DNA from: Parabacteroides faecis
GTDB taxonomy: Bacteria; Bacteroidota; Bacteroidia; Bacteroidales; Tannerellaceae
Assembly (NCBI RefSeq): GCF_014647375.1
Contig: NZ_BMPB01000003.1
Location: 186,001 to 250,000, forward strand
DNA: 64,000 nt
Reading direction: 5' to 3'
Shown here: piece after piece, positions 3,027 to 30,310 of the stretch
Layout of the letters: each line of letters begins with the position of its first letter
Position numbering within the stretch: the first letter of the stretch is position 1
Position numbers and translations under genes: made by a program
Notes under the pieces: model-generated
The model's database searches: none
Seen by the model: only the letters and a program-made list of their open reading frames with translations
Told to the model about the DNA's origin: nothing

Positions 3027-3065
3027 ATCAAGTGTTTTTCCGTAAATAAAAGATTTATTTAGTTG

Positions 3066-3073
3066 CAAATGTA
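3066..3073 (-). promoter_or_regulatory. -7 box (TACATTTG) of the GH51 gene
   Basis: On minus the bases read TACATTTG, matching TAnnTTTG, 40 bases before the ATG at 3026. The position rules out the upstream TTG start. Confidence 0.6.
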
Positions 3074-12219: not shown

Positions 12220-14139
12220 TTAATGTTGATTCCACCAAAGCGGGGTTGTCGTCAGATCCGGTCCCCCCAGCAATTCCAGTGCCTTCTGATACCCTTCCAG
12301 GTTATTTGTCTGGATATTGGCAGGATAACGGTAGCGTTTAGGGTAGAAATCCCAGCGGCATTCTTTGGCTGTTGCCATAGTCAAAGGAACCTGGTTCAAT
12401 GGGTTGTAGTCTTTTTCTACAGCCTGATTCTCAAAGAACGGCAGACCGAGACGGCGATGATCGCTCCAGGCTTCTTCCGGTAACCAGGGTACCTGTGCAA
12501 TGTATTTCTGAGTGATAATCTTCGTCAGTGCATCGTTATTGTAAGAGCCACCGCGATAGATGGAATTCTTCGGATAATTATATGTCATTGTCTTGTTTTC
12601 CTTTGTATAAGGATCGACATAATTGACTGTGTACGGTTGCGCTTCTGTCGTATGGTCAAAGCTGACAGAGGTACCTACACGATTATAATCCGTCGATGTC
12701 AGATATTGTGCAACCTGGTTTTGCAAGCCATGATATTCGAAACTGGCAGTGATGCCACTCTCATAATTCGACTTGGCGGTACCCGGAACCGTCCAACCTT
12801 TCAGGGCTGCTTCCGCCAACAGGAAATAACTTTCCCACGGACCGAAGAAGACACGTTTCTGAGTATTCATACGATACTGTTTCGACATGGAAGGATAGTT
12901 ATAATTCTTTCCTGTCAGTGCACTGACCAGACCGGACAGATTATTCCATTCTCCGGCTACCCAGGTACCCCAGGTATAACGAGGATCGACCGTCAGCATC
13001 GGTTTAGTATTATCGTTCGGGTCCATCAATTCGACCGGCTGTACTTCGCTGGCCGCACCGATATAATCGGAATAAACCACCCCGTCATTCCAGCCTACCA
13101 CGCTGAACAGTTTAGGTCCACGCGGATCGACATACTGAGGGATCGCATCAAAATAGAATCCGGCACACGGATCATTCGTCTTCAGCGGGAAATGTTTGTC
13201 CAGATATAACCCCATATAGGTATGAGGATCTTTCAGATGACTCTTCAGTGAGTCGGGAACAGGAAATTCGATACCGCCTAATCCTTCTGCCAGATTCTTG
13301 AAAGTGACAGACATCGCCTGTGCATTCCAGGTACGCGACATTACACTTGTCAAATCGTTCCAACCATCTTTTTCCTGTACGCCAGCCAGGTCATTCAGGG
13401 AAGAGATAAAAGTCTTGCCCGCTGCATCTTCGAACTCAGTCTTTGCCAGTTCCGGAGAGACAGCCGAAATACGCATGGCGTAACGCATACGCAAAGAGTT
13501 TGCATATTTCTTCCATTCATTGATATTTCCGGCATAGAAAGCATCTTCACCAGCCATCGGTTCCATATTAATGGAAGGATCGAGGGCAGCCTCCGCTTCT
13601 TTCAGCTCTTTCAGGATAAAGCCGTAAATAGTTTCCACACTATCATATTCGGCAGGCACACCCGTGAAAGCCGACAAAGCCGGGATCGGTCCGAAACCAT
13701 CCGATACTTCCGCATTCAGGTAAGCACGCCAGATACGTGCCATCTGTATCACATTCTTATAATAAGGATATTGTTCGGCTTCGCCTTCGGCAACCTTCTT
13801 TTCACCCAGTTCGATCGCCTTGGTGGCTTTGTTCAACCAACCTACAGCGTATGAGTTACTCAGATATAGGGTAATATAGTCGTTATTGTCCGTTCCGATC
13901 GTAAAACCGCTACCCCGGTTGAAGCGGGAAGCACGGTTCCACTCGGCAATGAAGATACGTTCGGCAATCTCCGGGTTCATCTGTGCTCCGACAATAGAGC
14001 CGTTCAGGAACCATTCAGGCTTCACTTTGTCCTCACCTACCTGGTTAGGGTCTTCGTTTATTTCCTGAAAATCATTACAGGATGTAAACAAAGCGGCTAT
14101 CGAGAACATGCCTGCCAGTAATATATTCTTGGTGTTCAT
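12220..14139 (-). CDS. SusD-like outer-membrane lipoprotein (system A)
   Basis: A 639-residue surface lipoprotein. The signal peptide ends in a lipobox with Cys21 (ALFTSC), followed by NDFQEINEDPN, which is typical of SusD/RagB proteins; the acidic stretch fits surface export. The helical scaffold motif INEWKKYANSLRMRYAMRIS near residue 205 marks the SusD-like_2 branch. Such proteins cap their SusC channel and hand over the ligand. The gene lies 37 bases downstream of susC-A, so both form one unit. The ligand is unknown; no carbohydrate enzyme accompanies it. Confidence 0.93.
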   Translation of the reverse strand: MNTKNILLAGMFSIAALFTSCNDFQEINEDPNQVGEDKVKPEWFLNGSIVGAQMNPEIAERIFIAEWNRASRFNRGSGFTIGTDNNDYITLYLSNSYAVGWLNKATKAIELGEKKVAEGEAEQYPYYKNVIQMARIWRAYLNAEVSDGFGPIPALSAFTGVPAEYDSVETIYGFILKELKEAEAALDPSINMEPMAGEDAFYAGNINEWKKYANSLRMRYAMRISAVSPELAKTEFEDAAGKTFISSLNDLAGVQEKDGWNDLTSVMSRTWNAQAMSVTFKNLAEGLGGIEFPVPDSLKSHLKDPHTYMGLYLDKHFPLKTNDPCAGFYFDAIPQYVDPRGPKLFSVVGWNDGVVYSDYIGAASEVQPVELMDPNDNTKPMLTVDPRYTWGTWVAGEWNNLSGLVSALTGKNYNYPSMSKQYRMNTQKRVFFGPWESYFLLAEAALKGWTVPGTAKSNYESGITASFEYHGLQNQVAQYLTSTDYNRVGTSVSFDHTTEAQPYTVNYVDPYTKENKTMTYNYPKNSIYRGGSYNNDALTKIITQKYIAQVPWLPEEAWSDHRRLGLPFFENQAVEKDYNPLNQVPLTMATAKECRWDFYPKRYRYPANIQTNNLEGYQKALELLGGPDLTTTPLWWNQH

Positions 14140-14176
14140 CTTGTTTTATTTCTTTATTGTTCTTATTAAACCATCT

Positions 14177-17100
14177 TTAAAATCCTACCGTAACGTTGAA
14201 CGTAAATGAGCGGCTGGTCGGTGCAGCCCCGTTTTCAAATCCGGTGGCATTCGTATTGGTTGCCGATACGGATTCGGGGTCGATACCCGGCAGGTTATAA
14301 TGGATCATCCATACATTGTTACAAGTGGCCGACAGACGCAGGCGCTGGAACGGTGTCTTTTGTAACATGGCCCGGTTAAAGTCATAGCCAAGCGTGATGT
14401 TACGCAGACGGATATTGGTAGCATCATACGTAAACATTTCAGGCAAACCGTAGTTTCCGGTCGAACCGATACGTTCCCAATAGTTCTGATGAGTTACAGG
14501 GACTTTATTTTCCGCATAACCGTTAGAGGTCTGTACCACAGAATTAGGGACCACGAAGTCCTGACGATTGCCGTTGACTACTGTTCCGGCGGCATTACCA
14601 CGGACATACAGGTTGGAAGCCGTAGCCGAATACAAGTCACCACCGATACGGAAGTCTACCAGGAAGCTAAGATTGAAACCTTTATACGCAAAGCTGTTTG
14701 TCCATCCCAGCATCCAGTCGGGACTTTGATTACCGACCTTCGATTTGCCGGTCGTGATCAGCGGCAGACCGTCTTCACCTACAATGATCTTGCCATAGTT
14801 AGGATCGTTCTTATCTTCTACACGCTGGAATGTTTGTCCGTAGATATCACCGTAATAACTACCTTGTACGGCTACGATCTGGATAGCATCCAATGTTTTT
14901 ATATCATAGAGAGTAACACCCGGATACAGGTCGATGATCTTGTTCCGGTTCAGAGAGAATTGTGCCGTCGAATTCCAGCTCAATCCTTTCGGGTTATCGA
15001 GGATCGCACCGTTCAATGAGATTTCGATACCTTCGTTCTGGATATTACCGGCATTTACTTTCCGTGAACTATAACCGGAGAACGGGTCCATCGGGAGGTT
15101 CAGCAACTGACGGGTGGCGTTTGTCTTATACCAGGCAGCATCCAATCCCAAACGGTTATTGAAGAAGCGGACATCGAAACCGGCTTCCCACGATTTTATC
15201 AACTCACTGCGTACCGTAGAATCAAAAAGCACATTGCCCGGAGCAGACGTCGTATTCCCATTCTCATCCTTTCCTACCGTAAAGTTATTGTATAACTGAT
15301 ACGGATCGAGGTCGTTACCTACTTCTGCATAAGAAGCTCTCACCTTGGCAAAGGTAAACCATTCAGGCATCTGCCCACCCAACTTCGGAACCATATCGGA
15401 GATAACGCCCGACAAGCTGACTGACGGATAGAAATAAGAACGATTGGCTTTCGACATAGTAGACGACCAGTCGTTACGTGCCGTCACATCCAGGAACAGA
15501 TAACCGTCCCAGTTCAACTGCAACGATCCATACAGCGAATTCATCTTGCGGCGGATCAGTTCGGAGGTGACTGTCGGTTTATTGATACCATTGTTCAGGG
15601 AGAAGAGGTTCGGGACAAGCAGTTCGCCTGCCGAAGCATTCATCTTCGTTCGTTTCTGCATCATCAGGTTACCACCAAAAGAAACAAATCCACCCAGACG
15701 GTCGATCAGGTTATCCTTACGGGCTGTAGCCAGGAAACTATAGTTATTTTCGTAGAATGTTTCAGAACCTTCGTTGTACAGACCACTTGGCGTTGTATTT
15801 CCACCGGCATATACTTTTTCATTTTTAGTAGTCGTATAATAGTCGGTACCACCCCGGAGTTCAATATCGAACCAATTCGTTGGAGCGTATTTCAATGCGA
15901 TATTACCCAGCAAACGGTTACGGGTATCGTTGTTTTGCCGGTATTTGGTTACCCAGTACGGGTTTTCCTGCGGATTCTTCGAGGCATCCCACCAGATCAT
16001 GTTTCCCTGTTCATCCACATCCTGTTTAAACTCAGCGACATTCAGTGAACGGGGCAAATTATAGATCGTGTTGAATGCATTGGAAGGATTGACACCCTGG
16101 ATCGGGCGGTTGTGGGCATTCATATTGATGTAGTTCACTTTGGCATCGATCTTCCACTTTTCGGCTTCATCGAGGAAAGTGGTTGCACGCAAAGTAATAT
16201 TCGTCTTGTTCAGTTTTGATTCGGGAGTGATACCGGCATCATCCGAACGGTTGATAGAAGAGAATACCGATGTCCCTTTTATATTCTGCTGGAAACTGAC
16301 ACCTTCATTGAAGGAAGTCCCGGTATTGAAAAAGGCATCTATATTATCATAAGTCTTTAAAGGTACCTGACGTCCGAGCCAGTCGGAGACCATCTGTCCT
16401 TCCGCTTTCGGTCCCCAGCTCAAACGCGACTGGTTATCGTAAGCACCGACCGAACCTTGTCCGAAGCTGTTCTGCAGATCCGGTTTAAGGAAAATCGATT
16501 CAGTCGTGATACCGGCATTGACCGTGATACCCAGACCTTCGTTTTTCTTTCCCGACTTAGTGGTGATCAGGATCACACCGTTACCGGCACGCGACCCGTA
16601 CAAAGCGGCAGCAGAAGCACCTTTCAGCACCGTCATCGATTCGATATCTTCGGGGTTGATATCGGAAAGACCGTTACCCATATCGGCACCGGAGTTACCC
16701 CATACATCATCGACACCGCCTGTGAAGTTATCCATCGGCGTACCGTCGACTACGATCAGCGGCTGGTTGCTACCGGTCAGGGAGTTGTTACCACGCAGAA
16801 CGATTTTAGAAGAACCTCCTACCCCATTACTGGAGCGCACGATCTGCAGACCGGAGACTTTTCCTGATAAGGAATTGGCAAGATTCGGTTCGCGTGACGA
16901 CAGCAATTCGTCACCTTTCAGTTCCTGCATCGCGTAACCCAGTGCTTTCTTGTCACGTTTCATACCTAAAGCGGTCACAACGACTTCATCCAGCTTCTGG
17001 GCATCTTCTGCCAGTTTAACATTCAATGTAGCTTGTCCGGTGTAAGGAATATCTTGTGTGGCAAAACCAATAAAAGAGATTTGGATAATGTCTCCCTTCT

Positions 17101-17344
17101 TTACGCCTTCCAGAGTGAAATGACCATCCATATCGGTCATAGTACCTGTGGTAGTACCTTTTATTACAACAGAAGCCCCTGCGACGGGTCCGAACTCATC
17201 TTCTACTGTTCCCGTTACTTTCGTATCCTGTTGGGAAATGTCAATAGCAGGATTCCCGGTATTCGGATTGGCAAAGGCGTTTCCGTTGAAACCCAACGCG
17301 CCCGCCAGGAGAATCATGCTGACAGATTTGAATCTTTTCAACAT
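14177..17344 (-). CDS. SusC-like TonB-dependent outer-membrane transporter (system A)
   Basis: A 1,055-residue outer-membrane channel. A signal peptide (residues 1-26) is followed by a carboxypeptidase-regulatory-like domain (about 40-112), the SusC/RagA TonB-box region LDEVVVTALGMKR (118-130), a plug domain and a 22-strand type barrel ending in FTFNVTVGF. No STN domain precedes these, so signalling through a FecR/sigma pair is not expected, and none is encoded nearby. It imports an unknown oligomer with its SusD partner, powered by TonB. The first ~130 residues closely resemble those of the other two SusC proteins here. Confidence 0.95.
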   Translation of the reverse strand: MLKRFKSVSMILLAGALGFNGNAFANPNTGNPAIDISQQDTKVTGTVEDEFGPVAGASVVIKGTTTGTMTDMDGHFTLEGVKKGDIIQISFIGFATQDIPYTGQATLNVKLAEDAQKLDEVVVTALGMKRDKKALGYAMQELKGDELLSSREPNLANSLSGKVSGLQIVRSSNGVGGSSKIVLRGNNSLTGSNQPLIVVDGTPMDNFTGGVDDVWGNSGADMGNGLSDINPEDIESMTVLKGASAAALYGSRAGNGVILITTKSGKKNEGLGITVNAGITTESIFLKPDLQNSFGQGSVGAYDNQSRLSWGPKAEGQMVSDWLGRQVPLKTYDNIDAFFNTGTSFNEGVSFQQNIKGTSVFSSINRSDDAGITPESKLNKTNITLRATTFLDEAEKWKIDAKVNYINMNAHNRPIQGVNPSNAFNTIYNLPRSLNVAEFKQDVDEQGNMIWWDASKNPQENPYWVTKYRQNNDTRNRLLGNIALKYAPTNWFDIELRGGTDYYTTTKNEKVYAGGNTTPSGLYNEGSETFYENNYSFLATARKDNLIDRLGGFVSFGGNLMMQKRTKMNASAGELLVPNLFSLNNGINKPTVTSELIRRKMNSLYGSLQLNWDGYLFLDVTARNDWSSTMSKANRSYFYPSVSLSGVISDMVPKLGGQMPEWFTFAKVRASYAEVGNDLDPYQLYNNFTVGKDENGNTTSAPGNVLFDSTVRSELIKSWEAGFDVRFFNNRLGLDAAWYKTNATRQLLNLPMDPFSGYSSRKVNAGNIQNEGIEISLNGAILDNPKGLSWNSTAQFSLNRNKIIDLYPGVTLYDIKTLDAIQIVAVQGSYYGDIYGQTFQRVEDKNDPNYGKIIVGEDGLPLITTGKSKVGNQSPDWMLGWTNSFAYKGFNLSFLVDFRIGGDLYSATASNLYVRGNAAGTVVNGNRQDFVVPNSVVQTSNGYAENKVPVTHQNYWERIGSTGNYGLPEMFTYDATNIRLRNITLGYDFNRAMLQKTPFQRLRLSATCNNVWMIHYNLPGIDPESVSATNTNATGFENGAAPTSRSFTFNVTVGF

Positions 17345-17381
17345 ACTGATGTTTTTTGTTTAATTTATTAGATTAAATGTG

Positions 17382-17388
17382 TTTGGCG
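17382..17388 (-). promoter_or_regulatory. CGCCAAA leader motif, susC-A
   Basis: CGCCAAA on the minus strand, with 37 bases between it and the ATG. The same motif occurs at the same distance before susC-B and 32 bases before susC-C. Confidence 0.45.
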
Positions 17389-17450
17389 TCAACCAACGTC
17401 ATTTGGTAATATAAACAGAAAGAAACAAGCGTTGTTGCAAGATTAACATT

Positions 17451-17474
17451 GGGGAACAACGGGATTTGTTCCCC
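17451..17474. promoter_or_regulatory. hairpin in the upstream region of susC-A
   Basis: GGGGAACAA (17451-17459) pairs perfectly with TTGTTCCCC (17466-17474), loop of six. It lies ~107 bases before the susC-A ATG in a 286-base gap that otherwise is AT-rich and shows no clear TAnnTTTG box. It could be a leader structure of system A or a terminator. Confidence 0.45.
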
Positions 17475-17630
17475 CTAAAAGCCTTCCCGGCGAAAGGCAC
17501 AAGCTATAAATCAAAAGGAGGATGAAAACTCTTTTTTATTGGTTATTCAATCAGAGCATAACTTTTTTTTATTTTTAATCACAAATACTTGTAACGGATT
17601 TGTGAAAATAAAGAAGAAAGAACCTTCTTC

Positions 17631-18302
17631 CTACATAGTCTGGCAAAGAACTATCAATTTAGCTACTTGCCATGGATCATCAAAATGAATGGATTGCTCT
17701 TTTACCAGCTGACGGATGGCTGTCCGATGAGTATCGGGATAGAGTTTTAAGAATGATTTGAGGTTACTGAAAGATACTTGCTGTCCATCCAGATAAATTC
17801 GATAGGTATTTTGGTAATCCTTTTTATATACACTGTTATCCGGATTACTAAGTCCTTTGTTTTGCATCAAAGACATATCAAAAGATGCTTGTCCTCCGGC
17901 TTGAGAGACTACTCCCATAGCACCACGTTTACCTTTATAATATAACTTTATTTTCCAATCGACCAGCAATATTCGGTCTCCAGCGGGAATACATTCAAAG
18001 AAACGGACACCTTCATGAGCCGGGACGAACTTCCGGTTCCCGATCCAGAGAGTATCTATATTCGAAGTGTTATACATCATTTGGTATTCATTACCGTCTT
18101 TGTAGTATAATTCCTGTTTTTCACAATCATAATTGAACTGAGTTTCTATATAGCTCTTATCGGTCAACAAGATCTTTCCATTGATAAACCGATCGAACAG
18201 GAAAACATCCGAAGACATTTCTACTGTTTCTTGCGCACTTAAAATGAAAGGGAATGTAAACAAAATAAGGAGCGTTTTGAAAAGAAAATATATTGTTTTC
18301 AT
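17631..18302 (-). CDS. exported small protein associated with SusCD system B
   Basis: A 223-residue protein with a Sec signal peptide (MKTIYFLFKTLLILFTFPFILSAQ at the start, cleaved after SAQ), so probably periplasmic. I do not recognise a named family. It is homologous to the third gene of system C (29672-30310): both share LF(D/E) near the start, Y-K-D/N-G, IDTxxIGNxKFxP, a G-A-(M/F)-GV segment and a C-terminal K-S-(F/L)-LK-L-(Y/F)P region. It lies 99 bases after susD-B with a hairpin between. A role in ligand handling or assembly of the transporter is possible but inferred only from the repeated context. Confidence 0.8.
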   Translation of the reverse strand: MKTIYFLFKTLLILFTFPFILSAQETVEMSSDVFLFDRFINGKILLTDKSYIETQFNYDCEKQELYYKDGNEYQMMYNTSNIDTLWIGNRKFVPAHEGVRFFECIPAGDRILLVDWKIKLYYKGKRGAMGVVSQAGGQASFDMSLMQNKGLSNPDNSVYKKDYQNTYRIYLDGQQVSFSNLKSFLKLYPDTHRTAIRQLVKEQSIHFDDPWQVAKLIVLCQTM

Positions 18303-18341
18303 TGTATATTATAGATTGAAATCACATTTATATAATGAAAT

Positions 18342-18372
18342 AAAGGCTGCCGAAAATTTCTCGACAGCCTTT
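18342..18372 (-). terminator. hairpin between susD-B and its small partner gene
   Basis: AAAGGCTG(c)CG (18342-18352) pairs with CG(a)CAGCCTTT (18362-18372), with T-rich flanks. Located between susD-B and the 223-residue gene, it probably reduces expression of the latter. Confidence 0.7.
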
Positions 18373-18401
18373 GTTATTATATAGCATTATGCTAATGTTT
18401 A

Positions 18402-20174
18402 TTACAATGCATTACCATTATGATTCTCAGCAGCAGTTGTACGCCCTGTCCACCACACCGGTGTGTCATACGTATTTTTATAAGCAACCTTTGCAAAATT
18501 TTCTGCATTATTAGTCAACTCACTGGATGGGTAGAACATACGTTCCTGGAATACAACGTTAGGAGTAGCAACAAATGGCAGTTCTCCGTCAAAGTCTTTC
18601 ACCAAACGACGTGCTTCATTATAAATTTCATATGGATTCATGATATTCATATGGCAGAACTTCTGGTCGAAAATAAATTTTAGTTTATCCTTTGTTGATG
18701 CCAAAGCAACAAATTTATTAGCTGCGAATTCTTCATAATCAGCCAAATGTTCTTCATCCAACTCCGGAGCCTTAGCCTTTGCTTGAACGTACAAAATACT
18801 TGGCAGAGAAGATTCATTATAACTCATTGTTTTATTCACATTGTAATAGAAGCGAGTAGAAGCATCAATAGCTTTCTTAATACATCCTTTAACATCAATA
18901 CTACCAAACTCACCCGGCCAACGCACTGCGGCTTCAGCTAATAGCAAGTTTGTTTCCGTTGAACCCATCACTGGAAATTTCATATCAAAATTGAAATAAG
19001 TACGACGATTATACATCGTAGGAATACGTTCCGGATTCCACGGATTTGTAACCACATCGTTAAAATTATACATATCAGTCAATTCCTGTTCTGTATAATA
19101 TTTAGGAAGCTCTGCTTCTGCTTCTTCCATTGTTAATGGCAAACCTATATAACGTCCATGAATATCAGTTTGGAACATGGCATACAGACGTGGGTCAAAA
19201 TCGTGACGAGTGATACCATTTTCATCGCCCGGTTGATATTCATAATTCATGATATCTTTAATAATTGTTGCCGGTGCCCCTGATTCATATCCACGTTCAT
19301 CCAACCCACGGAAGAATGTCACCTCGAAAGCATGTGTCTTATCTTGTTCTTCAAAACCAAGATCATGTGAATATTCTGTCAACATACGATTTTCGGCAAC
19401 CAACTCTTTAATAGTCGAAAGAGCTACATCCGATTTCACATGACAGAGACGCATTGCCATACGCAAACGCAAAGAATTAGCCATACGAATCCATTTGTCC
19501 AAATCACCATTACACAAAATATCTACGGATGAGAACTTCGACTTTTGTGCATCAGTCTGAAACTGGAAAGCTGTTAAGTCGGCAGCTGCACTTTTTAGAG
19601 TTTCCATGATATTCATGTAAATCTCTTCCTGCGTATCGTATTTAGGATAAAACAGTTCTTGAAAAGCACCACCGGCTTCCGAATAAGGCATATCGTCGTA
19701 CAAGTCTGTTGCACGCTGGAATGCATAAGAACGGATGATATCACTACAAAGCATATACACTTTGTTTTGTTCCTGTTCCTCCTCCGTCATGTCTGCATAT
19801 AATAATTTCATGCCACTGAGTTCTTTGCTATAATTGGTACAAGTCTGCGTAAAAATAAACTCATTAAATGGAGTACCTGACCAACCATCCCAAGGACGAA
19901 CAATCGTATTATTTTGGGTCTTATCCAAATATAATGGGCTGACACCTAATCCCAACATCTTACCAAAGCCTCTCATATAATGGTAAGTCGCACCATAGTC
20001 ATAACGGAACAAATGCCCTTTTGTTTGAGCAGATGCAAACAACAAACTGAAGTCAGCTTCTGTCAATTTATCCGGATTATAAAATTTTTCATCCAGCGTG
20101 TCACATGACACCATTGCTCCAGTTACGGCAACGCCCAAAGCTAAACTGGTTATATATTTTCTGATTGTATTCAT
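18402..20174 (-). CDS. SusD-like outer-membrane lipoprotein (system B)
   Basis: A 590-residue surface lipoprotein with lipobox Cys24 (AMVSC) followed by DTLDEKFYNPDKL. The motif LDKWIRMANSLRLRMAMRLC (near residue 228) places it in the SusD-like_2 branch, as for the other two here, but the overall sequence is far from them, so it likely binds a different ligand. It follows susC-B after 16 bases. DNA of this operon is visibly richer in A and T than systems A and C, which may indicate a different origin. Confidence 0.93.
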   Translation of the reverse strand: MNTIRKYITSLALGVAVTGAMVSCDTLDEKFYNPDKLTEADFSLLFASAQTKGHLFRYDYGATYHYMRGFGKMLGLGVSPLYLDKTQNNTIVRPWDGWSGTPFNEFIFTQTCTNYSKELSGMKLLYADMTEEEQEQNKVYMLCSDIIRSYAFQRATDLYDDMPYSEAGGAFQELFYPKYDTQEEIYMNIMETLKSAAADLTAFQFQTDAQKSKFSSVDILCNGDLDKWIRMANSLRLRMAMRLCHVKSDVALSTIKELVAENRMLTEYSHDLGFEEQDKTHAFEVTFFRGLDERGYESGAPATIIKDIMNYEYQPGDENGITRHDFDPRLYAMFQTDIHGRYIGLPLTMEEAEAELPKYYTEQELTDMYNFNDVVTNPWNPERIPTMYNRRTYFNFDMKFPVMGSTETNLLLAEAAVRWPGEFGSIDVKGCIKKAIDASTRFYYNVNKTMSYNESSLPSILYVQAKAKAPELDEEHLADYEEFAANKFVALASTKDKLKFIFDQKFCHMNIMNPYEIYNEARRLVKDFDGELPFVATPNVVFQERMFYPSSELTNNAENFAKVAYKNTYDTPVWWTGRTTAAENHNGNAL

Positions 20175-20190
20175 ACTTTGTTATACTGAT

Positions 20191-23100
20191 TTAGAATGAA
20201 ACATTAAGACCCAAACCAAAACTACGGACACCAGGGATACTACTAACCTCTGTAAACGAGTTAGTACCTTGTGTAGATTCCGGTGTTACATTCGGAATTG
20301 CCTTATAAATATAGCACAAGTTGTTTGCAAAAGCATTGATACGTGCACTTTGAATCTTGAATTTTGACAAGAAGCTTTTCGGTAAATTGTAATTAAACGA
20401 CAAAGAACGCAAAGCTATATAATCACTTTTATAAATCTGATCTTCTGACAAATCCATACCTCCTTGCCAGTATAACTGGCTATAATATTGTTCAGCAGTA
20501 ATCAGTTTTTCATTCTGTTTTCCATCACTCGTTACACCCGGTGTGATTACACCATCATGCAGGATGAATGGATAAAATGAATCAGCAGGAACAGCTGCAG
20601 AGTGGCTATCTAACAGGATACGCTCTCCAGCAGTATTCACATAATAAGGCAGACCGCCACGTGCTTCATCACGATACTTTAATGATTCAACACCGGAACC
20701 ATTACCCAACAAAAACATGTTTGTCTGAGAAATCATAGTTGCCCCGAATTGGAAGTCAAATACAGCACTCAAAGAAAAATCTTTATATGAAAGACTAGTT
20801 GTAAGACCACCAACAACATCCGGAGTAATTTTTCCAACTTTGATCATCTGTGTTTTATCAAAGTCCCAAACACCGGTTCCCTGATTAACGATACGGTTGC
20901 CATTTTCGTCACGCTGATATGGATAAATATAGATTTCACCATATTCACCATTAGGAATACTCCGAACAGAAGCACCCGTTGCACCCCACATATCCAACTG
21001 ATTGATACCTTTACCTAACTTCTTTACTTTTGTTGAATAATTTGCCAAATTAAATCCGACTTCCCATGTCCAGTCTTTAGTCATGATCGGCTTTGTATTT
21101 ACAGAAAATTCAATACCACTCTGAGCGATATCACCAGCATTCATACGAACCTCTGTCAAACCAGAAGAAGAAGGTACTGTTAACTTTGTGATCTGGTCAT
21201 AGGTATTATTATGGAAGAAAGAGAAATCTACGCCGATACGGTTACCTGGTAAAAATGCACCTTCCAAACCAATTTCATATTCACGCTTACGTTCAGGTTT
21301 CAAATTGGGAACCGGGAATCCGCCATTGGCAGAGGCGAAGTCTGCAGGTGGCAAATAATCCGGTAAAGACATGGTAGGCTGTCCACCATACGCACCTAAC
21401 GAGAAGTCTACGTTTCCATAATAACGAGGTCCAGGGCGACCTACATCGGCCCAAGAAGCACGTACCTTACCAAAGTTCAAGCTTGGAATATCGAATGCTT
21501 CCGTGAAGATCCATGATAAACTGGCTCCTGGATAAAAATAATGATTATTTTCAGGAGGAAGAATAGAAGACCAGTCATTACGAGCCTGAATTTCCAAGTA
21601 AACCTGGTTGGCATAAGCTAATTGAGCAGAAGCGAACACACTTAACAACAAATCATTTCCACGGGTACGACTTGAACGAGGACCAAAATCCTCACGAGTA
21701 TTACTCAAAGAAAACCAGTTTTCAATAGCGAAAGTTTCCTGCACAGATTGTTCCTGATATTCTTCTTTATTATACTTAACAGCACCACCGACCATAGCTG
21801 ACAAATCCCAAACATCATTAAATGTCTGATTGTAATTAAAAGAAGACTGGCCATACATAATCATATTACGTTTACTTGCAATCTGATACCAACCTTGCTT
21901 ATTTTCATAAGACAACGGTTTGCTGACATGTTGCTTAATTTCCTGATCAGAAACTGTCCAGTCAATACCTCCCAACGTAGTCCAGGAGAACTTATCATTG
22001 AATGTAACATCAACGTTCAATGACTGAATCAAGTGATTACGGTCATAGTCATTTGAATTACGTAATTGTGCCCAATAATAATCAGAGAAATAACTGGTAT
22101 AAGGAGCCATCTGCGTAACTGAATTATTCATGCTGAAATAATTGTAACCTTCATCTGTCAAATACATATCTTTGATCAGGTTGACATCCTGTTCACGCGG
22201 GAAACCATAGGTTGCAAAACTTTGCATGGCGTACGGAGCATTATGATCCTTCGTATTCGAAAAGTTGGTGTTCATTTTCACCTTAATCCAATCGTTTGCT
22301 TTCAGGTCTGCAGCAAAACTAAATGAGTGAGCTTTGTTATCTGCACCATAAGAGATAGCATTGTAATCACGATAGTTGTATGACAAACGGAAAGATCCCA
22401 AATCACCTCCATTGCTCAATGCAAAATTCACATTAGTCTGACCACCTGTACGGTACAAATCCCTTTGATTATTTCTCTGAGCAGAATAAGAATGATACTG
22501 TCCATCCCACCATAATAACTGACGGCCATCCAAACGCGGACCAAAATTATAACTGGAACCTCTCCACAATGACTCAACTGTTTGTCCGGTATTTGGATCG
22601 GTCATTGTATAGAAACCATCTTTGGAGATTTCTTTTAAAGCAGCAGTACCTGCACTCGAACCTGTACCGAATTCATTCTGTAATTCAGGCAGATAAGCAG
22701 CAATATTCCAAGAATGATTGATACCAAAATCAATACCTAATCCTTTTTTACCGCCGGTTTTAGTAGTAATCAACATAACACCATTAGCACCTTCCGATCC
22801 ATACAAAACGGCCGCTTTTGCACCTTTCAGGATTTCAATAGAAGCGATGTCTTCCGGATTGATGTCATTCAAACCTGTACCATGGTCACCACCGGTACGG
22901 CTATTAGTAGACTGTCCTGTATTTTCATCATGAATAGGAATACCATCCACTACAATCAATGGACGAGTAGAAGAATCTTCTGTCAAAGAAATAGCATTAC
23001 GAACTTTAATGTTCATACCACCAGAAGGACCGGAAGCAGTAGATTGTAACTGCAAACCAGAAGTTTTACCATACAAAGCTTGCATAGCATTCATCGGCGT

Positions 23101-23553
23101 ACCTGCTTCAGTCAGTTCCTCACCTTTTACACTACTTACTGAATAACCCAGTGCTTTCTTTTCGCGTTTGATACCCAAAGCTGTTACAACAACTTCGTCC
23201 AGTTTCTGAGCATCTTCAGCCATTTTCACTTGTAAAGCAGGTTGACCAGTATACTTGATTTCCTGGGTAGCATACCCGATAAAAGAAATCTGAATAATGT
23301 CACCGCTCTTCACACCTTCCAATGTAAAGTTACCGTCCATATCGGTAATCGATCCATTAGTTGTACCTTTCACTACGACAGATGCTCCGGCAACAGGACC
23401 GAATTCATCTTCAACTACTCCCGTCACTTTCCCATTCTGTTGGGAAATACTGGTTTTTGGCATTGCTGCAACCGTATCCGCAGACACATATCCGGGGATA
23501 CCTAGTGTTCCGGCTAACAGCAATAAGCCCACAGGCTTAAAGTTTTTCAACAT
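20191..23553 (-). CDS. SusC-like TonB-dependent outer-membrane transporter (system B)
   Basis: A 1,120-residue TonB-dependent channel: signal peptide (about 1-25), carboxypeptidase-regulatory-like domain (about 43-113), TonB-box region LDEVVVTALGIKREKKALGY, plug (VDGIPIHDENTG region), and a barrel ending GLGLNVSF. No STN domain. It heads the minus-strand operon susC-B, susD-B, small exported protein. The divergent susC-C starts 695 bases away across a region with shared palindromes, which suggests that B and C respond to one regulator. Confidence 0.95.
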   Translation of the reverse strand: MLKNFKPVGLLLLAGTLGIPGYVSADTVAAMPKTSISQQNGKVTGVVEDEFGPVAGASVVVKGTTNGSITDMDGNFTLEGVKSGDIIQISFIGYATQEIKYTGQPALQVKMAEDAQKLDEVVVTALGIKREKKALGYSVSSVKGEELTEAGTPMNAMQALYGKTSGLQLQSTASGPSGGMNIKVRNAISLTEDSSTRPLIVVDGIPIHDENTGQSTNSRTGGDHGTGLNDINPEDIASIEILKGAKAAVLYGSEGANGVMLITTKTGGKKGLGIDFGINHSWNIAAYLPELQNEFGTGSSAGTAALKEISKDGFYTMTDPNTGQTVESLWRGSSYNFGPRLDGRQLLWWDGQYHSYSAQRNNQRDLYRTGGQTNVNFALSNGGDLGSFRLSYNYRDYNAISYGADNKAHSFSFAADLKANDWIKVKMNTNFSNTKDHNAPYAMQSFATYGFPREQDVNLIKDMYLTDEGYNYFSMNNSVTQMAPYTSYFSDYYWAQLRNSNDYDRNHLIQSLNVDVTFNDKFSWTTLGGIDWTVSDQEIKQHVSKPLSYENKQGWYQIASKRNMIMYGQSSFNYNQTFNDVWDLSAMVGGAVKYNKEEYQEQSVQETFAIENWFSLSNTREDFGPRSSRTRGNDLLLSVFASAQLAYANQVYLEIQARNDWSSILPPENNHYFYPGASLSWIFTEAFDIPSLNFGKVRASWADVGRPGPRYYGNVDFSLGAYGGQPTMSLPDYLPPADFASANGGFPVPNLKPERKREYEIGLEGAFLPGNRIGVDFSFFHNNTYDQITKLTVPSSSGLTEVRMNAGDIAQSGIEFSVNTKPIMTKDWTWEVGFNLANYSTKVKKLGKGINQLDMWGATGASVRSIPNGEYGEIYIYPYQRDENGNRIVNQGTGVWDFDKTQMIKVGKITPDVVGGLTTSLSYKDFSLSAVFDFQFGATMISQTNMFLLGNGSGVESLKYRDEARGGLPYYVNTAGERILLDSHSAAVPADSFYPFILHDGVITPGVTSDGKQNEKLITAEQYYSQLYWQGGMDLSEDQIYKSDYIALRSLSFNYNLPKSFLSKFKIQSARINAFANNLCYIYKAIPNVTPESTQGTNSFTEVSSIPGVRSFGLGLNVSF

Positions 23554-23590
23554 AATTGATGGTTTTATTTGAACATAAAATAGACACTGC

Positions 23591-23597
23591 TTTGGCG
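23591..23597 (-). promoter_or_regulatory. CGCCAAA leader motif, susC-B
   Basis: TTTCGCCAAAG on minus; 37 bases separate the motif from the susC-B ATG, exactly as in system A. Confidence 0.45.
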
Positions 23598-23682
23598 AAA
23601 CAATGGTCTGTTCTAAATCTCTTTGGATATAATTCGCAGTAATATTTTAGAAACTAGTGTGTATTTTAGTTGGCGTTACCTC

Positions 23683-23697
23683 AGTTCTAAAAGGACT
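23683..23697. promoter_or_regulatory. 15-bp palindrome, copy 1
   Basis: AGTTCTAAAAGGACT: near-perfect inverted repeat, same pattern (AGTnCT, 3-4 A/T, AGnACT) as 23734-23748 and 24107-24121. Lies 130 bases before the susC-B ATG. Confidence 0.6.
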
Positions 23698-23733
23698 ATA
23701 GTTATTTCGGTTAAAAATAAAAAGATGGATATA

Positions 23734-23748
23734 AGTACTAAAAGAACT
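23734..23748. promoter_or_regulatory. 15-bp palindrome, copy 2
   Basis: AGTACTAAAAGAACT, 51 bases from copy 1 (about five helical turns). Candidate operator for the susC-B side. Confidence 0.6.
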
Positions 23749-23895
23749 TAAGTAATTATAGCTAATTATTTAGAAATCTGCCTATTGCATAATATGTTGT
23801 TTTGTAGTATGATATGAATTTTATGTATATATCTCACTTTGCAAATAGAATTATCTTTTCCTGATTTTTGAGTAAAATATAGACACCTTATAAAT

Positions 23896-23983
23896 GTTAA
23901 CAGGAAAATGTAATCATATTTCTTCAGAGAAGTTTTGTAAATCTATATTAACATATGAACCGTAAATCAAGTGTCCTGTTAAC
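23896..23983. promoter_or_regulatory. 10-bp inverted repeat in the susC-B/susC-C divergent region
   Basis: GTTAACAGGA (23896-23905) and TCCTGTTAAC (23974-23983) are perfect inverted copies 68 bases apart, near the middle of the 695-base region. They may be binding sites acting on both operons. The rest of the gap is AT-rich with no convincing gene. Confidence 0.45.
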
Positions 23984-24077
23984 TTAATTACGATGGATTA
24001 TTGTTAGCCAATGTGTTAAAAACAAAATCTTGTGATAATTTTTTGACGAAAAATAACACTGGGTAATAATTATTTCA

Positions 24078-24085
24078 TATATTTG
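24078..24085 (+). promoter_or_regulatory. -7 box (TATATTTG) of susC-C
   Basis: TATATTTG matches TAnnTTTG. Transcription would begin near 24091, giving a ~158-base leader; the palindrome at 24107-24121 then lies just inside the transcript, a position suited to repression. Confidence 0.6.
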
Positions 24086-24106
24086 TCGCGGATATAAAAT
24101 GTACAG

Positions 24107-24121
24107 AGTTCTTTTAGAACT
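24107..24121. promoter_or_regulatory. 15-bp palindrome, copy 3
   Basis: AGTTCTTTTAGAACT: perfect six-base arms around TTT; the reverse complement of the pattern at 23683 and 23734. It lies 22 bases downstream of the susC-C -7 box. Confidence 0.65.
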
Positions 24122-24209
24122 ATGATGATCGCTAAACACAATTTTAGACAGATATTAAATTACAAGAGATATACAATAATACATCAAATTAAACATAGAA
24201 GTGCTTATT

Positions 24210-24216
24210 CGCCAAA
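24210..24216 (+). promoter_or_regulatory. CGCCAAA leader motif, susC-C
   Basis: TTCGCCAAAA, 32 bases before the susC-C ATG; counterpart of the motifs at 17382 and 23591. Confidence 0.45.
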
Positions 24217-24248
24217 ATAACACTTCAGTAATCTAAAAACTATCAATT

Positions 24249-27200
24249 ATGTTGAAAAACTTAAAGCCTGTCAGCTTAATTCTGATCGCTGGCGCACTCG
24301 GTTTCTCAGGGAGCGCATATGCAGATCTGATGCCAAGTAAGCAAAGTACCGGGATTACCCAACAGAATGGGAGAGTCACCGGAGTAGTAGAGGACAACTT
24401 CGGACCCGTTGCCGGAGCCTCTATAGTTGTGAAGGGAACCACAAATGGTACCATTACCGACGTGAACGGTAATTTTACACTGGAAAACGTGCAAAACGGA
24501 GCCACCATCCAGGTCTCGTTTATCGGCTACGCCACACAGGAAATCCGGTATACCGGACAGCCCTCTCTTCGTGTGTCGTTAAAGGAAGATTCACAAGCTC
24601 TGGATGAAGTGGTTGTTACCGCTTTGGGTATGAAACGCGAAACGAAAGCATTGGGATATGCCGTTACCGAATTAAAAGGTGAAGAATTGCTGAACAACGC
24701 AATCAATCCGGTTTCAGCTTTACAGGGTAAAGTGGCAGGGGTTGAAATTGCCGGTTCCGACGGTGGTATGTTCGGTGCGACCAAGATCCAGATCCGTGGT
24801 GCATCTACACTGGGTAAAAACAACCAGCCTATTTATGTAGTAGACGGCGTTATCCTGGATAACGCGATCCGCGACGGGGATGCAGACTGGACAGCTCATA
24901 ACTACGACTACGGTAATGAGTTGAAGAACCTGAACCCGGACGACTTCGAAACAGTGTCTGTTCTGAAAGGTGCAGCCGCTACCGCCCTTTACGGTTCACG
25001 CGGTTTGAACGGTGCAGTCGTTATCACGACGAAATCGGGTAAAGGCAAACAGGGTATCGGGGTGAATGTTTCGCAGACGTTCGGTATCGACCATATGTTC
25101 AAACAACCGAAGTTGCAGAATAAATACGGACGCGGAAACTATACCGGTAATGTCGGCTATGGTGAAACCGATGCCAGTGGAAACTATTATCTGTATGACA
25201 ATATCGGCCAGTTCCATCTGAATTCAGCCGGCAATCCGACTCTTACAGGCGGAACAGGTCGCCATTGGGGACCTGCATTCGACGGACGCGACATTGAAAA
25301 CTATGACTATTCGACAATTGCCTACAGTCCGGTTGAGAATAACTTTAAGGATGCGTATAATTTAGGATTCAACAGCAATACGAACGTATCCGTCAGCGGT
25401 AGCAGCGAAAAGACCTCTTTCTATACTTCTCTGTCTTATAAGTATGCAAGCGGTACATTACCGAACAACAGCTTCGATCGTACATCGTTCCTGGCTAAGG
25501 CATCCCATAAGATTACCGACAAGATCGAAGTGGAAGCATCTATTGCTTTCGCCAATTCAAATCCGAAGAATGCGCAGCCGAATATCGGTGAGTTGTTCGT
25601 AGACGGTACCTGGGGACGTACATACGATACACAGTATTTCCGTAAACGTTATAAAGGAACTCACGGCGGTCTGGCAAGTGCCAGCTATGGCGACGAATAC
25701 GGTAACAACCCGGGAAGAAGTACCTGGTGGGCGATTTATGAAAATGACTATTCGCAGAAAGAAACTTCTGTACGTCCGACATTGGTATTGAATATGGAAC
25801 TGACCGACTGGATGAAATTCCGTGCGGAAGGTAACTACAACTATTATTACAGACGTTACGAGGAGAAACAGCCCGGTTCCGACTATGCAAACAAGAAGAG
25901 CGGTTATTATGGAATGGGACTGTATACAAAGGAACAGACCAACCTGAATGCCGCGTTTACGTTCAACAAGAGTGTGGGCGATTTCACATTCGGCGGGTTC
26001 ATCCGTGGTGAATATTTCAACAATATGCAACAGACCATGGCTGAAAATACAAACGGCGGTCTGGTTGTTCCTAACCAGTATTTTATTGCCAACTCTATCA
26101 ATACACCGTCTTACAGCGGTAAGATAGAAGGGGAAAAACGTATGCTGTCTTTATCCTTCCAGGCAAGTGCCAGCTGGAAAGATCAGCTCTTCCTGGATGT
26201 GACCGGACGTAATGACTGGTCGTCTGCCCTGGTTTATTCGGATACACATGGTAACTACTCCTATTTCTATCCGTCTATTTCCGCATCCTGGCTGGCTCAC
26301 GAAACGTTCCGCGAACAGCTTCCGGAATGGATCTCTTTTGCCAAACTGCGCGGATCATGGGCACAGGTTGGTAATGACACGGATGCTTATACGATCAACT
26401 CGGCTTATTCATTGCTGACTGCCCAGTTACAAGGCGGCGGTAACGTATATGCTCTGAGCATCCCGTCGACAGCTTATTCTACGAACCTGAAACCGGAACG
26501 TAAAAATGCCTGGGAAATTGGTCTGGACTGGCGCTTCCTGTCTAACCGTATCGGTATCGACATGACTTATTATAAGGAAAATACAAAGGACCAGATCATG
26601 TCGATCAGCGTTCCGGGTATCTCCGGTATCAGCAACCAGCATATCAATGCCGGTAATATCGAAAACAAGGGGCTGGAAATAGCCTTGAATACAACACCGT
26701 TCAAAAACAAAGACTGGCAGTGGGATTTGAACTTTACGTACACCAAGAACAACAATAAAATCGTTGAACTGCACCCGAATGTAGCCGATTATATAGAGTT
26801 GTCCGGTAGTGTCGCATATGGAAACTATCGCATTGGCTCGGTGGCAAAAGTAGGTGAATCTTACGGGGTATTGATGAGTGACTCGAAAGCAAAGATCGAC
26901 GAAAAGACCGGCTTGCCTATATTGAACGCTACTTCTTATTATGGTGGCGACAGAGGTATGCATGCCATGTATTACCAGCGTAGCGGTGAAGCGGAAGTGG
27001 TTGGTTCGATGGTTCCTGACTTCCTGGGTTCTGTAAGTACTTCGCTTACGTATAAAAATTGGAGCCTGCGTGCTTTGTTCGATATGCGTTTCGGTGGTTA
27101 TGTAGCGTCTTATGCAAACCGTTACGGTCTGGCATACGGTTTTACGGAAAGCTCCCTGAAATGGCGTGACGCAGAAAACGGCGGTATGAGCTATACTTCC

Positions 27201-27674: not shown

Positions 27675-27705
27675 ACAAAACAAGAAACTTTAAATTAATT
27701 GAGAC

Positions 27706-29604
27706 ATGAACAAATATAGTAATATATTAATGGGATTCGGCCTGAGTGCAGCCTTGGTATGCACCACCGGATGCCGTGATGATTTCGCAGATATCAACTC
27801 CAGCCCTTCGCAGGTGACTGTGGGTGACCCGTCTTATCTGTTCGCAATGGCCGCTATGGACTTTGAACCTTTTGGGTATACATTCTGGTTTTATGACGCA
27901 CCGATGTTGACATCATGGAGTCAGATGGCGGTACCGACCGGCAGCTTTACCGAAAGCTCCGCATTGACGACTGTTACTGGTGGCGTAAGCTATGTGAACA
28001 CTTTGAAACTGGCACACGAAATCACTTATTTACGTTCGAACATGAGCGAGGAAGATGCAGCCAAACATGCCGTAACAGCCGCATGCGTAGATGTTCTTAC
28101 TACTTATCTGGCACTTTCTAGCAGCGATATCAATGGAGATATCCAGTTTACGGAAGCCGGCAACGCCTTACATGGCGGTACTCTGACCCCGGCTTACGAC
28201 AGAATTGCCGATCTGTACACGCTGTGGTTGGATCAATTAAATTCAGCTATCACAACATTCACGACTGCCACCGACCAGATTTTTACAAACGAGCAGGATA
28301 TCGTTTATAAAGGCGACCGTGCCAAGTGGGCCAAAATGGCTAATTCGCTGAAACTAAGAATTGCTGCCCGTTTGATATCTCAAGATAAAGCAAGAGCTCT
28401 GGCTATTGCTTCGGAAGTCGCAAATGCTTCCTGCGGCTATATCGATTCTTTGGATGATGCCATGTTGTTCAACAAAAGTGTCGTAAACTCAAGCAGTGAC
28501 GATTACATTTACCACTGGAGTAACGGATTTATGGACGGAATGGCTTCCAACCAGCGTATAGTAGATTTCATGCTTGAAAACAAAGACCCTCGCGTTCGTT
28601 TCCTTTATCGTAAAAACGACTGGAACTCTAAAATCATTCAGGAATTCTACGATCAGGGCAAGGCGATTCCTTCCTATATCGAAGAAAACGTTGAATATAC
28701 CACGTCCGGCGGAAAGAAAACATTCGTGAAATGGAAAGGAATGGGTGAACCTTGGGTTCGTTATTACGGCCTTCCGGTTGAATATAATGCCAAGAACAAT
28801 TCGGCTGTTTACGGTGAATGGTTTGACTATGAAAACCGTTACAAGATTACCGACGAAAACGGCCAGAGTGCAAAAAGCTATCGCCCCTACTCTATGTACC
28901 AGCATCAGATGGTTATCGGACGTTACTATAATTTCACCCTGCCTACAGTTCCCGGCGGTCCTGTAATCACTAGAAACGACAGCCGTCCCTGGTACGGTTT
29001 GTATCTGGGTGGAAGTGAGGTAAACCTGTATCTGGCTGAGTTCAAACTATTAGGAGCAAACTTGCCCGGTACGGCTGAAAGCTATTTCACACAAGGTGTT
29101 AAACTGTCTGTTCAGGAATATGATAAGGTAGCCGGATTAAACCAGATCGCTTATTACGGCACTACTTATGATTATGATCCGAATGAAGTTTCCATCGAAC
29201 TGAAAAGCGGAGAGATCGAAGCGATGCTGGCATCAGACGATTACCAGCTGACCGGTTCAGCCAGCGAACAACTGGAAAAAGTATACTTGCAGCAGTTGAT
29301 CAACTTTACCATGTATCCTTACGATCAGTTTGTTACCGCCCGTCGTTCAGGCTTGCCTAAATTCAATTCACAGTTTATCAGTCGTGAGAATTATGCTTCT
29401 ATTCCTGTGACCAACTTCCCGCGTCGTTTCCAGACTGGTGTTCCTAACGAGATGAGCCAGTTGTACCAGATCCAGAGAGATGCGTATGCAGCACAGGGTT
29501 ACACCATCACAGGTGCCGGTGATGCGAATACATCTATTCTGAATTCAGAACGTACATGGCAGGATCAGGGTGCTCCGCAATGGGGTGAAGGACCAAAGAA
29601 TTAA
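27706..29604 (+). CDS. SusD-like outer-membrane lipoprotein (system C)
   Basis: A 632-residue lipoprotein with lipobox Cys23 (VCTTGC), then RDDFADINSSPSQV. The SusD-like_2 scaffold motif RAKWAKMANSLKLRIAARLI lies near residue 208. It follows susC-C after 31 bases and should form the lid of that channel on the cell surface. C-terminal region FPRRFQTGVPNEMSQLY resembles the conserved end of this branch. Ligand unknown. Confidence 0.93.
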   Translation: MNKYSNILMGFGLSAALVCTTGCRDDFADINSSPSQVTVGDPSYLFAMAAMDFEPFGYTFWFYDAPMLTSWSQMAVPTGSFTESSALTTVTGGVSYVNTLKLAHEITYLRSNMSEEDAAKHAVTAACVDVLTTYLALSSSDINGDIQFTEAGNALHGGTLTPAYDRIADLYTLWLDQLNSAITTFTTATDQIFTNEQDIVYKGDRAKWAKMANSLKLRIAARLISQDKARALAIASEVANASCGYIDSLDDAMLFNKSVVNSSSDDYIYHWSNGFMDGMASNQRIVDFMLENKDPRVRFLYRKNDWNSKIIQEFYDQGKAIPSYIEENVEYTTSGGKKTFVKWKGMGEPWVRYYGLPVEYNAKNNSAVYGEWFDYENRYKITDENGQSAKSYRPYSMYQHQMVIGRYYNFTLPTVPGGPVITRNDSRPWYGLYLGGSEVNLYLAEFKLLGANLPGTAESYFTQGVKLSVQEYDKVAGLNQIAYYGTTYDYDPNEVSIELKSGEIEAMLASDDYQLTGSASEQLEKVYLQQLINFTMYPYDQFVTARRSGLPKFNSQFISRENYASIPVTNFPRRFQTGVPNEMSQLYQIQRDAYAAQGYTITGAGDANTSILNSERTWQDQGAPQWGEGPKN

Positions 29605-29621
29605 TTCCTATTAATAACCTC

Positions 29622-29656
29622 GAAAGAGTAGTTACAGATTCTGTAACTGCTCTTTC
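29622..29656 (+). terminator. hairpin between susD-C and its small partner gene
   Basis: GAAAGAGTAGTTACAG (29622-29637) pairs with CTGTAACTGCTCTTTC (29641-29656), one mismatch, loop ATT. It has no long T-run, so it may partly terminate or stabilise the transcript. System B has a hairpin in the same place. Confidence 0.65.
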
Positions 29657-29671
29657 ACATATTCTACAACA

Positions 29672-30310
29672 ATGAGAACATACCTGTTAATCACCATCCT
29701 GTGCTGTATAGCAACCGTAGGTAGTGTTAATGCACAGAAGAAACGTCAGATGCTTTTCGAAGATTACTCGAAGGGTGTCGTGTTAATGAAGAACAACTCC
29801 AAGACAATGGCAGAACTCAATTACGATGCCGGCAATCAGAAGATGATGTTCAAAAACGGTTCGGAAGAAATGCTCCTTACCAACGTTGCCCAGATCGATA
29901 CGGTCTATATTGGAAATGCCAAATTCATTCCGACCGGATCCAGTTTCTATGAGATACTACAGATACCGAATGGTCTTATCGGTATAAACTGGTTGTTGAA
30001 GAATACTTCCCAGGGATATAAAAATGCTTTCGGCGTAACGCAACAGGCTAAAGTGGAAACTTTAAATACGAACCAGTTAAACTATAGCACTTACGAAAAT
30101 CAATACACGGAAGTGTATAAGCTCGCCAATCAGAATGAATATTGCATATTCCGTGATGGTACTCCGCTGAAATTCAAAAATAAGAAATCGCTATTAAAAC
30201 TCTTTCCCGGCAAAGAGAACCTCATCGAAACTTATATAAAAGAAACGAAAACAGACATGAAGAATGCGAAAGATGTCATCACACTTGTCAATTATTGCCT
30301 GGGATTATAA
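29672..30310 (+). CDS. exported small protein associated with SusCD system C
   Basis: A 212-residue protein with a Sec signal peptide (MRTYLLITILCCIATVGSVN, cleaved after NAQ). It is a paralogue of the 223-residue protein of system B: aligned blocks include IDTVYIGNAKFIP, NAFGV and KKSLLKLFPGKE, while overall identity is low. No known catalytic motif is visible. Placement as the last gene of two separate SusCD operons suggests a conserved partner of this transporter type, probably periplasmic. Function unknown. Confidence 0.82.
   Translation: MRTYLLITILCCIATVGSVNAQKKRQMLFEDYSKGVVLMKNNSKTMAELNYDAGNQKMMFKNGSEEMLLTNVAQIDTVYIGNAKFIPTGSSFYEILQIPNGLIGINWLLKNTSQGYKNAFGVTQQAKVETLNTNQLNYSTYENQYTEVYKLANQNEYCIFRDGTPLKFKNKKSLLKLFPGKENLIETYIKETKTDMKNAKDVITLVNYCLGL

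Follow-up and report, generated by a model that had tools for sequence, protein, structure and literature searches.

This report concerns an 18-kb island of SusC/SusD genes in Parabacteroides faecis, at positions 12220-30310 of the window, by which we mean the whole 64,000-nucleotide stretch analysed (C3:186001-250000 of the 6.66-Mb genome). The island contains three SusC-SusD pairs, here called systems A, B, and C. Eight genes were found at the coordinates that a first-pass annotation, made from the sequence alone, had assigned to them, and the remaining listed open reading frames (ORFs) of at least 100 aa overlap these eight. Systems A and B are on the minus strand and C is on the plus strand, so that susC_B and susC_C are divergent. 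Their start codons are separated by 695 bp, within which lies a 439-bp segment (23683-24121) bounded by inverted 15-bp repeats of the AGTTCTTTTAGAACT type. The inverted repeats and the promoter between the divergent susC genes had been overlooked in the first-pass annotation and are our main subject. The features of the island are as follows:

12220-14139, minus strand: susD_A, the lid of system A (PF12741, 2.9e-59; PF12771, 4e-43)
14177-17344, minus strand: susC_A, with its own leader (TIGR04056, 5.6e-200)
17631-18302, minus strand: small exported protein B, 223 aa, with a signal peptide and without a lipobox
18342-18372, minus strand: hairpin of 14 pairs in the gap from susD_B to small gene B
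18402-20174, minus strand: susD_B (PF12771, 2.8e-32)
20191-23553, minus strand: susC_B (TIGR04056, 8e-180)
23542-23566, minus strand: 25-bp inverted repeat covering the susC_B start codon, with 24 of 25 bases as in the C arm
23683-23697, minus strand: proposed B-side recombination site, AGTCCTTTTAGAACT
23698-24106: proposed invertible promoter segment between the sites
23734-23748, minus strand: second, variant B-side site, AGTTCTTTTAGTACT
24078-24085, plus strand: sole TAnnTTTG box of the segment, TATATTTG, facing susC_C
24107-24121, plus strand: proposed C-side recombination site, AGTTCTTTTAGAACT
24236-24260, plus strand: 25-bp inverted repeat covering the susC_C start codon
24249-27674, plus strand: susC_C (family scan; clade-mate of SusC proteins from fucosidase-linked loci)
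27706-29604, plus strand: susD_C (PF12771, 2.3e-35)
29605-29671, plus strand: susD_C to small gene C gap, holding a hairpin of 16 pairs
29672-30310, plus strand: small exported protein C, 212 aa

The gene content of the island was as first described. ORF lists and family scans bore out three SusC-SusD pairs in 18 kb, with no glycosidase, lyase, sigma/anti-sigma gene, or hybrid regulator among the genes of 12220-30310. All three SusC proteins score far above the TIGR04056 SusC/RagA cut-off, and all three SusD proteins exceed the cut-offs of both PF12741 and PF12771, in agreement with the shared SusD-like_2 scaffold that had been proposed. Polysaccharide utilisation loci combine SusC/SusD with glycoside hydrolases or lyases; such enzymes accompany the genes in relatives but are absent from 12220-30310, and the closest carbohydrate enzyme found was an arabinofuranosidase (1074-3068) in an arabinose-type cluster ~9 kb ahead of the island. 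Nowhere in the island did an RNA family reach its gathering threshold.

Systems B and C are very likely two cassettes of an invertible-promoter, phase-variable SusC/SusD shufflon. A recombinase, probably of the tyrosine type and encoded elsewhere, would act at the inverted 15-bp sites and flip the 439-bp segment, directing the single promoter to either C or B, such that each cell would make one of the two transporters at a time. The sole box of the segment has the form TAnnTTTG, the Bacteroides -7 box consensus (PMC4747536), and it faces susC_C, so the assembled orientation is predicted to leave C on and B off. Since B and C share one promoter on an invertible-looking segment, they look mutually exclusive, which runs counter to the earlier idea of a multi-ligand island running three systems together. 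System A would be a constant neighbour: no recombination site was found before susC_A, which is 94-95% identical to the copies beside oadA in three relatives. Judging from these sequence features, the locus is most likely no three-ligand island; instead, A would be a constant importer next to B and C, a pair of which one or the other is made by phase variation.

Three sites within two mismatches of AGTTCTTTTAGAACT are present in the window, against 0.18 expected, and none of 100 shuffles held three or more. Genome-wide, 18 sites had at most one mismatch, compared with one for the reversed pattern used as a control; 12 of these form six inverted pairs with identical arms, three are in the window, and three are single. 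The inverted pairs elsewhere in the genome have pair-specific centres. Eight pairs were assessed (the window's, the six with identical arms, and one whose second arm has two mismatches), and susC was the next gene for six of them. In the same six, TAnnTTTG is located 22-29 bp from one arm; 1000 single-base shuffles gave a mean of 0.18 of eight pairs and never more than two (shuffles for this test, and for the homology-break and hairpin tests below, preserve base composition only). Several SusC promoters in this one genome thus look invertible. The further susC-adjoining inverted pairs are at C10:28517/29109, C1:41588/41817, C4:173390/173768, C13:125356/125572, and C5:87078; in the C10, C1, C4, and C13 pairs, where susC is the left-hand neighbour, the arm-proximal box faces away from susC. 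A tyrosine recombinase gene is located at C3:184823-185233, ~770 bases beyond the left end of the window and ~24 kb from the switch.

At the sequence level, the shufflon is supported by the sites, the box, opposite promoter orientation between species, breaks in homology, and two junctions in Parabacteroides gordonii. The island was read in three relatives, G362, P. gordonii (G333), and Parabacteroides goldsteinii (G337), the last two from the same genus as the window, and each of the four island stretches holds one full promoter core. This core faces C in the window but the A-side module in G362 and P. goldsteinii, and the leader types on each side are alike in these three genomes (alignment read by eye). 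Among 11 such susC starts in the relatives, 10 have the site 135-144 bp upstream, and the eleventh, G362_C, has a site with one mismatch. When C was compared with G362 C, and B with P. gordonii B, identity was 0.83 from the site to the ATG and 0.60 beyond the site, against 0.57-0.58 for shuffled sequences. The C modules of the window and P. gordonii share 19 promoter bases, which are all that the P. gordonii contig contains.

The P. gordonii assembly is interrupted at the promoter, which two contig ends connect to different module leaders. One contig starts with the promoter, the site, and a stretch identical at 80 of 80 bp to the module B leader, while module B itself lies ~7.8 kb further along the same contig, without a promoter. 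The second contig starts with the last 19 bp of the promoter, the site, and the module C leader. Both P. gordonii and G362 have extra modules, not present in the window, that carry a site but no promoter, and in these relatives such promoterless cassettes would recombine to the promoter. The number and order of modules vary among genomes while the flanks are constant: system A with oadA in all four, tkt with rpiB in three of four (beyond the stretch read in P. gordonii), and the M28 peptidase, carbonic anhydrase, and HAD genes in three of four (beyond the stretch read in P. goldsteinii). One extra gene lies between rpiB and oadA in G362 and P. goldsteinii. An exact search for the site plus a susC start recovered two of 39 genus genomes, a pattern too strict, as P. 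gordonii and P. goldsteinii do have sites.

Systems B and C each add a gene for a small signal-peptide protein, as the first-pass annotation had noted. The two products are homologous (63 of 215 positions identical, 29%; E 2e-30), and both begin with an apparent signal peptide and lack a lipobox Cys, as read by eye. Neither singly nor as a 17-member set did they give a significant match in Pfam, NCBIfam, or the PDB (best profile-PDB E 0.41). Kinship with Mul1B (NF052542) was considered and rejected: P0002 scored 17.2 bits against a curated cut-off of 75, and one of 17 members matched (E 0.0022). Members of the small-protein family occur in at least 75 of 295 genomes of the order (E 0.001) and at least 33 of 124 genomes of the taxonomic family (E 1e-12), both being lower bounds since at most 10 candidates per genome were scored in the former search and at most 24 in the latter; the 80 regions compared around these matches are a subset of all matches. 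Four members are listed in the P. faecis genome itself, namely B, C, a third that ends another SusC-SusD-lipoprotein operon, and a fourth that follows an NADH-dehydrogenase operon (recognised by eye).

A tree of the small proteins ties one clade of the family to one type of SusD. The tree comprises 90 members of at least 180 aa, including eight rows added from named loci; shorter sequences, L095, L130, and the short duplicate loci L037-L065 were excluded, and rows cut by a contig end stay under 'other'. Both window proteins fall in a clade of 27 rows (support 100), of which 24 directly follow a window-type susD, as labelled by a hidden Markov model (HMM) grown from the three window SusDs. The SusD-context label changes four times on the tree, against 21.4 times for shuffled labels. 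The exceptions in the clade are L082 and L159, with no susD-like ORF before the small gene, and the second copy of L101, which follows opposite-strand genes; the L159 small gene is convergent to a SusC-SusD pair. Outside the clade, the small gene comes after another SusC/SusD operon in 13 rows, after a gene for a tetratricopeptide-repeat (TPR) protein in 10, and after an NADH-dehydrogenase operon in three. A further gene precedes the TPR gene in seven of the 10 TPR-context rows, and one example scans as trypsin-like. Members directly after an NADH-dehydrogenase-like operon are at L035, L068, and L069.

The search proposed in the first-pass annotation, for the susC-susD-small triplet in other Bacteroidales, therefore showed the triplet to be real. 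Contexts are mixed outside the 27-row clade. In a separate search of named genomes, the small gene directly follows susD in 14 of 16 loci (exceptions L159 and the matched L161 copy), a count that leans toward SusCD linkage because the query was built from SusCD-linked members. The most likely role of the small protein is that of a periplasmic accessory to its transporter. In P. gordonii, small gene B is interrupted by an apparent insertion sequence (IS) element with two genes (L168), and an FKBP-type gene, 73% identical to window 30435-30977, lies between susD_B and small gene B (L168:13278-16109).

Within each cassette, SusC would form the TonB-dependent barrel and SusD the lid, and the hairpin between susD and the small gene would reduce the amount of the exported accessory protein. 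A strong hairpin was present in all 14 susD-small gaps folded (z -2.7 to -8.4), including the window gaps at 18303-18401 and 29605-29671; the gaps were hand-chosen, with L152, L155, and broken or truncated copies excluded. The stems differ in sequence among most loci. This hairpin may be a leaky terminator that holds the small protein below the level of SusCD. A 10-pair inverted repeat, listed on the plus strand, also lies just after susD_A, though system A has no third gene. System A may once have had a small gene and lost it, because the nearest kin of SusC-A beyond its own orthologues (L098, L157) carry one.

The genes that follow related triplets offer some indication of the ligand. Same-strand genes in like order follow the triplet in five of 16 loci: L150 (Seramator thermalis), L152 (P. 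barnesiae), L153 (Phocaeicola vulgatus), L154, and L155 (a metagenome-assembled genome). Family scans identified an alpha-L-fucosidase of glycoside hydrolase family 29 (GH29) after the triplet in L150, L152, L153, and L155. GH3 enzymes were likewise identified in L150 and L153; the L154 enzymes and the GH3 of L152 and L155 were assigned not by scan but from gene length (782-787 aa) and matching gene order. A BNR-repeat (sialidase-like) protein is also encoded in the P. barnesiae locus, and a GH92 gene neighbours that of P. vulgatus on the opposite strand. The fucosidase that follows the triplet in P. vulgatus ATCC 8482 is represented by two adjacent ORFs in two reading frames (L153:8862-10274). 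Other triplets precede unrelated genes, including those for amino-acid synthesis (Parabacteroides distasonis, L151) and BipA (L157). In a SusC tree of 33 hand-chosen rows, SusC-C falls in an 18-row clade with the proteins of L150, L152, L153, and L155, and SusC-B stands apart. The first-pass annotation had counted glycosidases in the same transcripts as a finding that would speak against it, and the four scanned loci with GH29 on the same strand seem to come close to this, while the window has none.

Because a GH29 fucosidase follows related triplets on the same strand, there is a weak indication that the ligand of C is host-type glycans or glycopeptides rather than plain peptides. A peptide component of the ligand is also conceivable, because BT2264, which comes from a complex (Bt2261-64) solved with an oligopeptide (PMC7782687), is the closest SusC of known structure for SusC-B, SusC-C, and the P. 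vulgatus protein. This likeness does not point to peptides alone, because the fucosidase-linked P. vulgatus SusC is about equally close. The suggestion of peptides drawn from the adjoining M28 gene is not supported: system C and this aminopeptidase-like gene are encoded on opposite strands. In the window, G362, P. gordonii, L091, and L098 alike, the M28 gene and the small gene next to it are convergent, and we rejected the M28 gene as a sign of peptide uptake. A glutaminyl cyclase was likewise rejected, as the 32 solved matches are amino- or carboxypeptidases, a keratinase, or M28 peptidases, with no cyclase among them.

Several observations weigh against a shufflon. The B-side site differs from the C-side site by one mismatch, a regulator site might resemble the 15-mer, which is almost a palindrome, and two of the eight site pairs in the genome have no box at the 22-29 bp position. 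The genome has 23 PF00589 matches as candidate recombinases, and the window species is represented by a single strain in a single assembled orientation. Furthermore, both neighbours of the segment in P. gordonii (C and w) share one leader type, unlike the other three genomes, and both P. gordonii junctions are at contig ends, where an assembly error or a second B-like leader is possible. The near-palindrome and the near-fixed distance before susC would suit operators of a dimeric regulator, with B and C co-regulated from a shared control region. We consider this very unlikely, given that homology breaks at the site, the promoter core has opposite orientations between species, the genomic pairs have pair-specific centres as recombination sites should, and the P. 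gordonii junctions join one promoter to two leaders. The view of the first-pass annotation, in which three SusCD importers would act independently and constitutively on different peptides or glycoconjugates, seems just as improbable: the lack of enzymes or regulators between the systems and the nearness of SusC-B and SusC-C (the two compared) to BT2264 of the oligopeptide complex would fit, but B and C share a promoter segment with inverted sites whose orientation is opposite in relatives, and the fucosidase-linked P. vulgatus SusC is about as close to BT2264. Alternatively, the switch may be real but have as its chief use the diversification of surface receptors in the face of phages or immunity, with nutrient choice secondary, a view that is compatible with the shufflon and that we think rather unlikely. 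A nutrient-receptor shufflon of Bacteroides thetaiotaomicron is reported to shift after phage exposure (PMC12548429), and orientations near SusC/SusD genes differ between patients with inflammatory bowel disease and controls in a study of 39 genomes that included P. distasonis (PMC10939037); the glycosidases in line with the triplet in relatives argue for a nutrient role.

The small protein, in turn, might be a passenger with a general envelope role and no part of the transporter, which is possible if somewhat doubtful. Consistent with this, homologues are found after an NADH-dehydrogenase-like operon, after TPR-protein genes, and elsewhere, and the P. gordonii copy is split by the apparent IS element. 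Two further points tell in the same direction: island modules without a small gene exist (G362_x, and G333_w and G333_z of P. gordonii), and 40 of the 90 tree rows have no SusC/SusD, TPR, or NADH-dehydrogenase context, some of them from contig ends and the three clade exceptions included. Against a passenger stands the gathering of the SusD-linked members in one well-supported clade, with far fewer label changes than in shuffles. A stronger version of the shufflon would make the small protein a dedicated third SusCD subunit, swapped together with barrel and lid by the one-promoter toggle, such that exactly one complete importer is shown per cell from a set that differs by species; we advance this only tentatively and would not expect all of it to hold.

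This kind of shufflon is already known, and the small-protein partner and the divergent two-way layout appear to make the present one a variant. The site consensus of the Bacteroides fragilis system is AGTYYYN4GDACT, which was not found printed in the open-licence papers searched. The SusC/SusD shufflons of B. fragilis have an invertible promoter, and their repeats span the start codon of susC (PMC5729914); Tsr0667 has been named for three SusC/SusD clusters (PMC4747536). The B. fragilis intergenic shufflon (region EE) and the Tsr0667-dependent inversions share several pairs, repeats over the susC start, an invertible promoter, and cassettes moved to one promoter with what we propose here (PMC5729914, PMC4747536, PMC11852207). 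By sequence, the window has the grouped SusC/SusD pairs, the 25-bp repeats over start codons, and a promoter between inverted repeats; promoterless cassettes with the same site are found outside the window, in P. gordonii and G362. The two P. gordonii promoter-leader junctions, both at contig ends, may be a sign of inversion within a strain. The locus differs from that of B. fragilis in genus, in having its promoter between two divergent cassettes, so that one would always be addressed, and in that most of the island cassettes read end in a small exported-protein gene. SusCD inversions in general are noted in a review (PMC12632263). A description of this locus was not found in the open-licence literature searched, with searches aimed at any published Parabacteroides SusC shufflon.

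RagAB of Porphyromonas gingivalis is an enzyme-free SusCD-type peptide importer, and further small proteins join the BT2261-2264 complex of B. thetaiotaomicron. Matches to RagA are far weaker than those to BT2264 (PDB 5FQ6-5FQ8), at E 3.1e-33 versus 1.2e-98 for SusC-B and 1.4e-44 versus 2.4e-99 for SusC-C. The window small proteins differ from that complex in lacking both a lipobox and a significant sequence match among PDB chains. Related triplets precede GH29 (P. vulgatus, P. barnesiae, Seramator, L155) and GH3 (P. vulgatus, Seramator) in polysaccharide utilisation loci of these enzymes, whereas the window copies have no enzyme. In utilisomes, extra locus proteins assemble on SusCD (PMC7618045), but these are surface lipoproteins (an enzyme and a glycan-binding protein), whereas the window small protein has neither a lipobox nor a known sequence relative.

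The choice of nutrients that gut Bacteroidota import is set by their SusCD importers, which are also accessible to phages and the immune system. If the two-way switch of the promoter is true, cells of one clone would differ in their importer, and its state could be scored from existing reads. The small proteins, as an unnamed family with one clade tied to one SusD type, are a testable candidate for an unrecognised SusCD partner.

Other features in and around the island were also recorded. The gene pair between cassettes in G362 is BT4734-like/VapE-like and is accompanied by an HU-HIG gene (L165:11584-14632); P. gordonii also has an HU-HIG gene between cassettes (L168:6224-6871). Window 30435-30977 encodes an FKBP-type protein whose match to BamJ, of the Bacteroidota BAM complex, is below the cut-off (60.2 bits versus 100). 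Further along the window, 53041-53222 is a Bacteroidales small signal recognition particle (SRP) RNA directly upstream of a tRNA-Thr.

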